Assembly: GCA_025935995.1 (NCBI GenBank)
Contig: JAICUF010000017.1
Coordinates: 1-33,968, forward strand
Source: Gemmatimonadales bacterium
Lineage (GTDB): Bacteria; Gemmatimonadota; Gemmatimonadetes; Gemmatimonadales; GWC2-71-9
Length of the DNA stretch: 33,968 nucleotides
Reading direction: 5' to 3'
This document shows, one piece after another, positions 1 through 30,857 of the stretch (position 1 is its first letter; each line of letters opens with the position of its first letter). Both the position numbers and the translations under genes were made by a program. A model generated the notes under the pieces. That model saw only the letters and a program-made list of their open reading frames with translations. It had not been told where the DNA came from and searched no databases.

Positions 1-870
1 ATCGAGCAGGCCCAGCGGCAGGGGCAGCTCTACATTCACCAGCCGTTCGAGCTCTACTCGGAGGCGAACCACGACGCGTGGCGCCGGCTGTACGCCCGCA
101 TGGAGAGCCGCTGGCGGACGTACGCCAATCCGCGATTCCTGCAGGGGATCGACAACCTCTGCCTCGACCCCGCGCGGGTGCCGCGGCTGGATGATGTCAA
201 CCGATTTCTGAGCCCGCTCACCGGCTTCAAGGCGAAGGCCGTGAGCGGGTACATCCCGTCGTTCCTCTTCTTCGACAGTCTCAGGAACCGCGAGTTTCCC
301 ACCACGATCACCATCCGGGACGGCGCGACACTCGACTACCTGCCCGAGCCGGACATCTTCCACGACATCGCCGGCCACGTCCCGATGCACACCGACCGTG
401 CCTTCGCGGACACGCTGGTGCGCTTCGGCGACTGCGCCCACACCGCGGCGGACATCGTGGCCGGGATTCCGGACGAGGCGGAGCGCATCCGGCGGGTAAC
501 CAGCATCTTCAAGGCGCTGGCCCGCTTCTTCTGGTTCACGATCGAGTTCGGCCTCATGCGGAGCGAGGACGGGCTCAAGGTCTACGGCAGCGGGCTGCTC
601 AGCTCCTACGGCGAGATCGAGCATGCCGTGGACTCGCCGGAGGTGCAGCGCTATCCGGTCCAGCTCGAATGGGTGATCAACCAGTACTTCGAGATCGATC
701 ACTACCAGCCGCTCCTCTTCATCGTCGATTCGTTCGACCATCTCTTCGAGCTCGTCGGCGAGCTCGAGCGGTGGATGCTGGCGGGAAAGCTCGACAACGT
801 CGCGGGCGGGGAACCCGGAATCAGCGAGCCCGACCTGCGCAGCTTTCTGGAGGCGGCGGCGGGTCGCTAG
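1..870 (+). CDS. phhA: Phenylalanine 4-monooxygenase (aromatic amino acid hydroxylase), 5' end truncated by window
   Basis: Frame is open from base 1 (IEQAQRQGQLYIHQPFELYSEANHDAWRRLYARM...); LPEPDIFHDIAGHVPMHTDRAFAD iron-binding His motif typical of aromatic amino acid hydroxylases. Confidence 0.9.
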   Translation: MEQAQRQGQLYIHQPFELYSEANHDAWRRLYARMESRWRTYANPRFLQGIDNLCLDPARVPRLDDVNRFLSPLTGFKAKAVSGYIPSFLFFDSLRNREFPTTITIRDGATLDYLPEPDIFHDIAGHVPMHTDRAFADTLVRFGDCAHTAADIVAGIPDEAERIRRVTSIFKALARFFWFTIEFGLMRSEDGLKVYGSGLLSSYGEIEHAVDSPEVQRYPVQLEWVINQYFEIDHYQPLLFIVDSFDHLFELVGELERWMLAGKLDNVAGGEPGISEPDLRSFLEAAAGR

Positions 871-11343: not shown

Positions 11344-11991
11344 ATGGCAACGATCGCGGAACGGACGAAGCAGCAGGAGGAAACGGCGGCCTGGCACGGC
11401 GTGAGCCTCAGGACGATCTACATCGTCGGGGGCGCCCTCGTGCTGGCCGCGCTCGTGATCTGGGGCATCACGGTGAGCGGCCGCCGGAAGGCGGAGTTCT
11501 CGGCCCGGGAGCTCGATCAGGCCCGGTCGGTCGCCGAGACGGGCAACCTGCCGCTGGCGTCGTCGTCGCTGCAGAAGATCATCCAGTCGTATCCCGGCAC
11601 GCCGGCAGCCGAGGAGGCGGTGATCACGCTGAACCAGGTGCGGCTGGTGAACGGGCAGAGCGAGCTCGCGGCGGTCAACCTGCGGGAGTACCTCAAGGGC
11701 AGCCATGACCCGCAGTACGTGGCCGCGGCCAACGGGCTCCTTGGCGCGGCACTGGAGAACTCCAAGCGGCCGCTGGAGGCCGCAGCCGCGTACCGGGCCG
11801 CCGCGGGCGCCGCGGGGGTCGATTACCTGAAGGCGGAATATCTGGTGGACGCAGGACGGGCGTACCGGGACGCAGGCAAGACGGCGGAAGCCACGGCGGC
11901 CTATCGTGAGGTGGTCGACAAGTATGCCAAGACCGCGAGCATCACGGAGGCTCAGGTACGCCTGGCGGAGCTGACTGCAGGGAAGATGTAG
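11344..11991 (+). CDS. Membrane-anchored tetratricopeptide-repeat protein
   Basis: Single N-terminal TM (IYIVGGALVLAALVIWGI) then TPR-like helical repeats (AARSVAE..., YLVDAGRAYRDAGKTAEATAAYREVVDKYAKT). Confidence 0.8.
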   Translation: MATIAERTKQQEETAAWHGVSLRTIYIVGGALVLAALVIWGITVSGRRKAEFSARELDQARSVAETGNLPLASSSLQKIIQSYPGTPAAEEAVITLNQVRLVNGQSELAAVNLREYLKGSHDPQYVAAANGLLGAALENSKRPLEAAAAYRAAAGAAGVDYLKAEYLVDAGRAYRDAGKTAEATAAYREVVDKYAKTASITEAQVRLAELTAGKM

Positions 11992-12022: not shown

Positions 12023-12050
12023 GGGGTCTTCAGGCGGGGACCCCTTTCTT
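12023..12050 (+). terminator. Probable rho-independent terminator for the + strand arm
   Basis: GGGGTC ... GACCCC 6-bp stem followed by tttctt, 31 nt after the TPR gene stop. Confidence 0.65.
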
Positions 12051-12066: not shown

Positions 12067-12094
12067 ACTACGTATAAGATATATTATGTTAACT
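12067..12094 (+). other. dif: Putative chromosome dimer resolution site (dif; XerC/XerD core site)
   Basis: ACTACGTATAA GATATA TTATGTTAACT. Compared with recalled E. coli dif GGTGCGCATAA TGTATA TTATGTTAAAT, 21/28 identical (XerD arm 10/11). Compared with recalled B. subtilis dif ACTTCCTAGAA TATATA TTATGTAAACT, 23/28 identical. Located at the convergence of the + and - gene arms. Confidence 0.85.
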
Positions 12095-12099
12095 TCGCA

Positions 12100-12119
12100 T
12101 GGGGATAACTGTGGAGAAC
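12100..12119 (+). repeat. Two imperfect 10-bp direct repeats resembling DnaA boxes
   Basis: TGGGGATAAC TGTGGAGAAC; each 9-mer has one mismatch to TGTGGATAA (complement of TTATCCACA). Confidence 0.5.
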
Positions 12120-12204: not shown

Positions 12205-13020
12205 TCAGTCGGTCAGCCGGCCCTCGAACACCAGTCGGCCTTCGCCGCACAGCCACACGTCGCGGGCGTCGGAACCCTGAACGATGGCCGAAACGCCGAG
12301 CAGCGCCCCGCCCCGCGAGATGAAGCTGGCGGGCAACCCGGCCTCGGCCGCCACGGCCAAGGCCGCCGCGACGGTGCCCGTTCCGCAGGCCAGCGTCTCG
12401 CCTTCGACGCCGCGCTCGTAGGTCCGGATCCGCCACGGCCCGCCAGGCGCGACCGGCGGACTCACGAAATTGGCGTTCGCCCCGGCGGGCCCGAGGCCCG
12501 GGTGGAAGCGGAGGACCCGCCCCCGGCGCAGGAGGTCCACGCTGTCGACCTCCGCCACGCGGATCACCAGATGCGGAACGCCGACGACCGTGAAGCTGAT
12601 GGCCAGCTCGCCGGCCTCGGGCTCGAGGCCAGCCACCGGCGCCGGCATTCGAAGATCGGCGAGCCGAAGCTCGGCGCGTTCGGTGCCGCCGACGGAGCGC
12701 GTGCTGTAGGTGGCGGCGTCTGTGACCAGCTCCATCCCCTCGGCGGCGCCCAGCCCGAGGCGAGCCGAGAGCCGGGTGCTGCAGAGGGCCGCATTGCCGC
12801 ACATGGCGGCGCGGGACCCGTCGGCATTGAAGGAGGTCATCCGGACGGCGTTGGGGCGCTCCGGGGTCAGGACGACGAGGCCGTCGGCCCCGACCCCGTG
12901 GCGGCGGTCGCAGGCGGTGGCGATGCGCTCGACCGTCCAGGACTCGACCGGCGACACCCGGCCGTCGAGCATCACGAAGTCGTTGCCCGACCCGCTCATC
13001 TTGAAGAACGGCGTCGCCAT
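12205..13020 (-). CDS. dapF: Diaminopimelate epimerase
   Basis: MATPFFKMSGSGNDFVMLDGR, MCGNAALC and GETLACGTGTVAAAL catalytic-cysteine motifs. Confidence 0.93.
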   Translation of the reverse strand: MATPFFKMSGSGNDFVMLDGRVSPVESWTVERIATACDRRHGVGADGLVVLTPERPNAVRMTSFNADGSRAAMCGNAALCSTRLSARLGLGAAEGMELVTDAATYSTRSVGGTERAELRLADLRMPAPVAGLEPEAGELAISFTVVGVPHLVIRVAEVDSVDLLRRGRVLRFHPGLGPAGANANFVSPPVAPGGPWRIRTYERGVEGETLACGTGTVAAALAVAAEAGLPASFISRGGALLGVSAIVQGSDARDVWLCGEGRLVFEGRLTD

Positions 13021-13754
13021 CAGAGCCGTCCCGCCAGCGCGCGGAGACGCAGCCACCAGACCATCCAGATCGCCTCGCGTACGATCCTCTTGTTCATCTT
13101 GCTCTGGCCCTCGATCCGGTCGGTGAAGACGATCGGCACCTCGACCAGGCGAAAGCCCTTTCGCCAGGCCCGATAGCTCATCTCGATCTGAAAGGCGTAG
13201 CCGTTGGAGCGAACCCGGGTGAAATCGATGGCCTCGAGGACCGACCTGCGAAAGCACTTGAACCCGCCGGTGGAGTCGGTGAGCGGCAGGCCCGTGATCC
13301 AGCGGGCGTACTGGTTGGCGCCGATCGAGAGGAGAAGGCGCGACATCGGCCAGTTGATGACGTTCACGCCGGTCTTGTAGCGGGAGCCGATGACGAGGTC
13401 CGCCGCTTCGGCCGCCCGGATGAGCTCCGGCAGAAACTTCGGATCGTGGGAGAAGTCGGCGTCCATCTCGATCAGAAGATCGTAGCTTCGCGCCAGCGCC
13501 CAGGTGAACCCGGCAAGGTATGCCTTCCCCAGCCCCTGCTTCGCCTCACGGTGGAGCACGTGCACCCTCGTGCTTTCGGTCGCCAGCGTGTCGGCGATGG
13601 CGCCGGTGCCGTCGGGGGAGTTGTCGTCCACCACGAGCACGTCGAGCCGCGGATCCTGCTGGAGGATCGCGGGCACGATGATCGGCAGGTTGACGCGCTC
13701 GTTGTAGGTCGGCACCACGACGAGCACCCGTTCGGCTCCGGGAACTGGATTCAT
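13020..13754 (-). CDS. GT2 glycosyltransferase, polyprenol-phosphate mannose synthase-like
   Basis: VVVPTYNERVNLPIIVPAIL, VVDDNSPDGTG, MDADFSHDPKFLPELI, TDSTGGFKCFRR; DPM1-like signature. Confidence 0.9.
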   Translation of the reverse strand: MNPVPGAERVLVVVPTYNERVNLPIIVPAILQQDPRLDVLVVDDNSPDGTGAIADTLATESTRVHVLHREAKQGLGKAYLAGFTWALARSYDLLIEMDADFSHDPKFLPELIRAAEAADLVIGSRYKTGVNVINWPMSRLLLSIGANQYARWITGLPLTDSTGGFKCFRRSVLEAIDFTRVRSNGYAFQIEMSYRAWRKGFRLVEVPIVFTDRIEGQSKMNKRIVREAIWMVWWLRLRALAGRL

Positions 13755-29939: not shown

Positions 29940-30857
29940 TCAACCGCGCGGGTGGAACTGCCGATGGACCGAGCGCAGGTACTCGCGGTCGACGTGGGTG
30001 TAGATCTGCGTGGTCGACAGGTCCGCGTGACCGAGCATTTCCTGGACGGCACGGAGGTCCGCGCCTCCCTCGAGCAGGTGGGTCGCGAAGCTGTGGCGGA
30101 GAGTGTGCGGCGTCACCCGCTTCGTGATCCCGGCGCGCTCGGTGGCCTGCTTCACGATGCCCCAGGCGCCCACGCGGGAGAGCGGTTCGCCGCGGGCATT
30201 GAGGAGGACGCGTCCGCGCGACGCACCGCGATCGAGCTCCGGGCGGAGGGTGTGGAGATAGACGGAGACGATCCCGATCACACCCCGGCCGATCGGGACG
30301 AGCCGCTCCTTGCTGCCTTTTCCCATCACCCGGACCAGGCCGTCGTCGAGCACGAGATCGGCCAGCCCGAGGCCGCACAGCTCGCTCACACGGAGTCCCG
30401 CTCCATAGGCCAGCTCGAGCAGCGCGCGGTCCCGCCAGGCGAGGGGTCGGTCGGTGGCGGCCGCGGCGAGCAGCGCCTCGACCTCGGTGACGCCGAGCGT
30501 ATCGGGAAGCGTCCGCCACCGCTTCGGCGTCTCCAGGCGGTCACTCGGGTCCTCGTGCAGCAACCCCTCGCCGATCAGGAATCCGAAATAGGTGCGCGTG
30601 GATGAGATGGCCCGGCGAATGGTCGCAGGGCTCAGTCCCAGGTCCTTGAGCAGAAACACGAAGTCGCGGAGCATCGGCCGGGTGAAGCCGGCCGGCGCCG
30701 TGACGCCACGGCTCAAGCCGAACTCGCCGAGGCGCCGGAGATCGCGCAGGTATGCGGTAATGGTGGTGGGGCTGTGACCGGCCTCGAGCGAGAGATAGTC
30801 ACGGAACGCGTTCAGGAGGAAGTCGCGGTCGATGCGCTCCGCGAGCGCGGACGTCAT
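29940..30857 (-). CDS. xerD: Tyrosine recombinase XerD/XerC
   Basis: SAM-like N-domain plus catalytic residues in LAYGAGLRVSELCGL, GKGSKERLVPI, TPHTLRHSFATHLLEGGADLRAVQEMLGHADLSTTQIYTHV. Confidence 0.93.
   Translation of the reverse strand: MTSALAERIDRDFLLNAFRDYLSLEAGHSPTTITAYLRDLRRLGEFGLSRGVTAPAGFTRPMLRDFVFLLKDLGLSPATIRRAISSTRTYFGFLIGEGLLHEDPSDRLETPKRWRTLPDTLGVTEVEALLAAAATDRPLAWRDRALLELAYGAGLRVSELCGLGLADLVLDDGLVRVMGKGSKERLVPIGRGVIGIVSVYLHTLRPELDRGASRGRVLLNARGEPLSRVGAWGIVKQATERAGITKRVTPHTLRHSFATHLLEGGADLRAVQEMLGHADLSTTQIYTHVDREYLRSVHRQFHPRG

Follow-up and report, generated by a model that had tools for sequence, protein, structure and literature searches.

A Predicted Chromosomal dif Site in Gemmatimonadales and the Conserved DnaA-Box-Like Element Beside It

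Introduction

In most bacteria, circular chromosomes that have become doubled up are separated by the recombinases XerC and XerD at a site termed dif.

Within the phylum considered here, Kono et al. 2011 (PMC3025954) report a single successful dif prediction, for one Gemmatimonadetes genome; term searches of their text gave no mention of flanking sequences. Given that earlier prediction, the dif described below is itself ordinary and adds one more example to a known kind of site. The plasmid Xer sites cer and psi are known to have accessory sequences, with which ArgR, PepA and ArcA are associated (reviewed in PMC5357621). For chromosomal dif, a literature search judged mostly by titles and abstracts gave no report of DnaA boxes or accessory sequences beside the site. 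What appears to be new here is a conserved DnaA-box-like element beside a chromosomal dif of otherwise known kind.

The window, as the whole stretch of DNA analysed is called, is 33,968 nucleotides long and represents an entire contig (C111) of a MAG assigned to the order Gemmatimonadales (2.86 Mb, 222 contigs, 87% complete), from a soil or water bacterium.

The 28-mer and Its Relatives

Direct inspection of the window places the 28-mer ACTACGTATAAGATATATTATGTTAACT at 12067-12094, between the stop of a TPR gene (11991) and the stop of dapF (12205). It has the layout of a dif site: 28 bp, with 11-bp arms around a 6-bp centre and the XerD arm the better conserved of the two (Table 1). Against dif reference sequences, it is identical at 21/28 positions for E. 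coli and 23/28 for B. subtilis, and its XerD arm agrees with both at 10 of 11. The position, the arms and the counts that the first-pass annotation gave were correct. Elsewhere in the window, the runner-up reaches 15/28 against either reference. The site had also been described as an AT-rich 28-mer amid GC-rich DNA, as indeed it is: 28-mers with at most 7 G+C bases occur in a single stretch of the window (70% G+C overall), and ACTACGTATAAGATATATTATGTTAACT lies inside it.

Table 1. Features at and near the dif site, with positions in the window.
Feature	Position	Strand	Basis or remark
TPR-repeat protein gene, neighbour on XerC side	11344..11991	+	Pfam TPR matches; common to most relatives
Terminator-like hairpin 3' of TPR gene	12023..12044	+	Consensus scan only
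dif XerC-binding arm, ACTACGTATAA	12067..12077	+	Aligned to relatives: CGTATAA invariant, first 4 bases variable
dif central region (6 bp), GATATA	12078..12083	+	Position between arms; variable among relatives
dif XerD-binding arm, TTATGTTAACT	12084..12094	+	10/11 with E. coli arm; TTATGT nearly invariant in relatives
Weaker proximal DnaA-box-like copy, TGGGGATAA	12100..12108	+	10 bp before distal copy; from sequence
Distal DnaA-box-like 9-mer, TGTGGAGAA (reverse TTCTCCACA)	12110..12118	+	15 bp past XerD arm
dapF (diaminopimelate epimerase), neighbour on XerD side	12205..13257	-	TIGR00652, 160.5 bits (cut-off 114.65); common to most relatives; ORF extent, true start downstream of first GTG
xerD, approximate start	29940..30836	-	TIGR02225, 329.4 bits (cut-off 329.6); NF001399 above cut-off; closest solved structure 1a0p (E. 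coli XerD), E 2e-60

A single match to ACTACGTATAAGATATATTATGTTAACT at up to 3 mismatches was found in the whole MAG. Profile R1, which used sequence only and was trained on the dif sites of 27 relatives' loci with the window's own site excluded, likewise gave one match at E<=10, the site at 12067-12094 (34.2 bits, E 8e-8). The expectation of a single best match to a dif profile was thus borne out, and neither search of the MAG turned up a rival dif-like site.

The site is widespread in the family. Counted at up to 3 mismatches from a degenerate consensus, it is present in 87 of 103 genomes, nearly always as a single copy; of the 50 genomes with completeness of 90% or more and contamination no higher than 5%, 47 have it. 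When an exact pattern was matched to a collection of named genomes, nearly all matches were to MAGs of Gemmatimonadota or Gemmatimonadales; one carried the label Myxococcaceae, and two, both from one isolate, were labelled only 'bacterium'. These matches place the host in the Gemmatimonadota and, most likely, in the order Gemmatimonadales. The surroundings are also almost always alike: the TPR gene is next to the XerC arm, and beyond the XerD arm come dapF and genes for a glycosyltransferase and a YfhO-like protein, so that retention of the 28-mer between the TPR gene and dapF, anticipated from the single sequence, was seen in almost all relatives. The 28-mer also persists elsewhere in the class, in other families, but at the ten loci examined there no dapF was found next to it. 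With this support, ACTACGTATAAGATATATTATGTTAACT is almost certainly the dif site of the chromosome.

Assemblies of some relatives show irregularities at this locus. One MAG (G372) holds two differing TPR-dif-dapF loci, on contigs C12 and C41 (L004, L054), and is probably a mixed bin. Contig ends lie within about 100 bp of dif in G087 (C70/C171), G243 (C63/C119) and G256 (C48/C98), as expected if some cells of the population carry a mobile element integrated at dif, or if the assemblies broke there.

A Conserved Element on the XerD Side

Alignment of the dif flanks revealed a second conserved motif, TGTGGANAA (reverse TTNTCCACA), on the XerD side. It begins 15-16 bp beyond the end of dif, and a second copy is often found 10 bp nearer. 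The bases in between are poorly conserved, and that the motif is kept where its surroundings are not is an argument for selection. The first-pass annotation had recognized dif correctly and missed this element next to it.

The distal copy (at most 1 mismatch from TGTGGANAA, at +14..17) is present at 62/63, 42/48 and 5/5 loci of families f1, f2 and f3; the proximal copy (same tolerance, at +4..7) occurs at 21/63, 26/48 and 1/5. One or both copies are found in 115 of these 116 loci of the order, which share ancestry, so that the counts are not independent events. Where the flanks are complete, a copy accompanies 113 of 114 loci; shuffled flanks are expected to yield about 0.3, and the XerC side gives 1-2. 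Family f7 lies outside the order, and all 16 of its loci lack the motif, although their dif 28-mers are intact. The single locus of family f8 has one proximal near-match. Exact copies of TGTGGANAA are rare, with 11 in the whole MAG. Because the distance from dif to dapF differs by hundreds of bases among relatives, the motif travels with dif and not with dapF. The flank of the Gemmatimonadales dif is most likely a conserved accessory site that is bound by protein.

Candidate Binding Proteins

The sequence TTNTCCACA, the reverse complement of TGTGGANAA, is the established DnaA-box consensus. On the minus strand of the window, the distal copy (TTCTCCACA, 12110-12118) fits the DnaA-box consensus TTNTNCACA. 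Moreover, the region immediately upstream of dnaA was examined in nine relatives, and each of them has either TTATCCACA or TTTTCCACA beside a TTGAC hexamer, as might be expected of a dnaA promoter under self-regulation. Because the motif equals the consensus box and boxes lie upstream of dnaA in these nine genomes, DnaA is rated the likeliest binder; as such it is the leading candidate, at about an even chance.

A different protein may instead occupy the flank: a lineage-specific Xer accessory, fork-arrest or terminus-organising factor, or FtsK or XerD directly. The fixed spacing of 15-16 bp from the XerD arm would fit a protein that touches the recombinase complex, and confinement of the element to one order would also suit such a protein. 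Identity of the motif with the DnaA-box consensus TTNTCCACA argues the other way, as does the copy just upstream of dnaA in every one of the nine relatives, given that the 9-mer is otherwise rare. This alternative, which concerns the flank only and leaves the dif reading unaffected, is a serious possibility that falls somewhat short of even.

No match to dnaA was found in the MAG assembly, which is 87% complete. Elsewhere in the same MAG, at G000:C187:6727-6927 (L300), a pair of oppositely oriented TTNTCCACA boxes separated by 190 bp lies beside an ORF that, judged from its sequence by eye, is pyruvate-kinase-like. An oriC-like box cluster was considered for this region and rejected, as no further boxes surround the two.

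Position of the Terminus

The site had been described as the convergence point of the window. The direction of the genes close to it agrees with this; genes farther to the right have mixed directions, and GC skew across the window shows no clear change of sign. Only five copies of the KOPS-like GGGNAGGG occur in the 34-kb window, too few for assessing polarity; four of them point toward dif.

Complete or nearly complete relatives are more informative than the fragmented MAG. In five of them (G039, G090, G205, G141 and G139), the distance between dnaA and dif amounts to about 42-49% of the chromosome. For example, it is at 1.930 of 4.64 Mb in G039 (dnaA at 1 kb), at 2.12 of 4.72 Mb in G090 and at 1.606 of 3.26 Mb in G205, with similar placements in G141 and G139. 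Scores for profile R1 are weak in G205 (E 0.16) and G141 (E 0.49); both sites adjoin dapF. Sampled cumulative GC skew in G039 has its maximum between 1.84 and 1.955 Mb, an interval that includes dif, and in G205 the maximum is the 1.60-Mb sample. The prediction that dif would be found at the GC-skew switch, roughly opposite dnaA, therefore holds in these two complete relatives. In G276, a complete 5.5-Mb MAG of the same family, dif is 1.44 Mb from dnaA and the sampled skew is incoherent, for which a rearranged genome or misassembly is the suggested reading; this genome was counted neither in favour of dif nor against it.

These positions bear on whether the 28-mer could be a dif-like attachment site, or its relic, left by an IMEX or phage that integrates by means of Xer. 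Such elements do carry dif-like sites, and contigs of a few relatives break at dif (G087, G243, G256). An origin of this sort is nevertheless highly improbable, given one copy in the MAG, identical housekeeping neighbours across three families, good conservation of both arms, and the coincidence with the skew switch where complete relatives could be examined. Less probable still, to the point of being negligible, is an AT-rich promoter that resembles dif by chance: a sigma-70-like pair (TGGACA-16-TATTAT, 10/12) does overlap the site because the dif core is AT-rich, but no plus-strand gene starts just downstream, dapF on the minus strand runs toward the site, and the conserved 28 bp coincide exactly with the span of the two Xer arms. 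Promoter or terminator identity of the 28-mer was accordingly rejected in favour of dif.

Recombination Machinery and a Proposed Mechanism

Three tyrosine recombinases are encoded in the MAG: XerD, XerC and an integron integrase. XerD is encoded in the window itself (Table 1). XerC is on contig C152, where the best model is TIGR02224 at 319.7 bits, 15 below the cut-off of 335. FtsK with its gamma domain is found on contig C83 (86.7 bits). With XerD, XerC and FtsK-gamma all encoded, the parts of an E. coli-type system are present. The first-pass reading of the locus as the replication terminus and site of dimer resolution is thus supported by the uniqueness of the site, by synteny, by its position relative to skew in relatives and by the Xer and FtsK genes.

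The xerD gene is about 18 kb from dif; according to Kono et al. (PMC3025954), the gene usually near dif is xerC, not xerD. The integron integrase (L033, G000:C67:39-638, minus strand; TIGR02249, 452.6 bits) is at a contig end, and the MAG may contain a chromosomal integron.

By analogy with the E. coli system, from which the order of the reaction and its control by FtsK are inferred, XerC and XerD would each bind one of the two dif arms. Once a dimer of sister chromosomes has formed, FtsK would pump DNA toward the terminus and, at the septum, its gamma domain would activate XerD. Strand exchange by XerD and then by XerC would restore two monomers.

A protein bound at the flank, with DnaA the leading candidate, could mark the terminus or tune the access of XerD/FtsK or of arriving forks. 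Because the spacing to the XerD arm is fixed, accessory control of XerD/FtsK is the preferred role; marking of the terminus or fork arrest would also be possible. As a tentative proposal that is somewhat more likely to fail than to hold, the Gemmatimonadales dif may be a composite site in which the XerD arm is combined with one or two DnaA boxes at a fixed helical spacing, and through which the initiator, or a protein of the same specificity, would link the state of replication to Xer recombination or fork arrest.

Significance

Few members of this phylum have been cultured, and dif gives a marker for their replication terminus; with the conserved interval from the TPR gene through dif to dapF, contigs of MAGs can be assigned to the terminus region. 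The conserved flank is concrete evidence hinting that, in one bacterial order, Xer recombination on the chromosome involves an accessory site for protein binding. If DnaA does have a site at dif, control of initiation would be tied to the terminus. The question is testable in cultured Gemmatimonas.

Comparison with Known Systems

A close likeness is to dif/XerCD of E. coli, which shares with this locus the 28-bp site, its 11-6-11 division, an XerD arm alike at 10 of 11 positions, and encoded XerC, XerD and FtsK-gamma. The XerC arm differs more, matching at 7 of 11. The dif of E. coli is not known to have a conserved DnaA-box-like element on the XerD side, and in this respect the Gemmatimonadales locus is probably distinct. 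The B. subtilis site, served by RipX/CodV, is closer in sequence (23/28) and sits in a different chromosomal neighbourhood; the flanking element may be a further difference from it.

The Gemmatimonadetes dif predicted by Kono et al. 2011 (PMC3025954) belongs to the same phylum and is the same kind of site. Like cer and psi (PMC5357621), the locus pairs a core site for Xer with an accessory sequence that is conserved. In contrast to those plasmid sites, it is chromosomal, FtsK-gamma is present, the accessory motif resembles a DnaA box, and the accessory sequence extends over about 20 bp rather than the roughly 180 bp of cer and psi.
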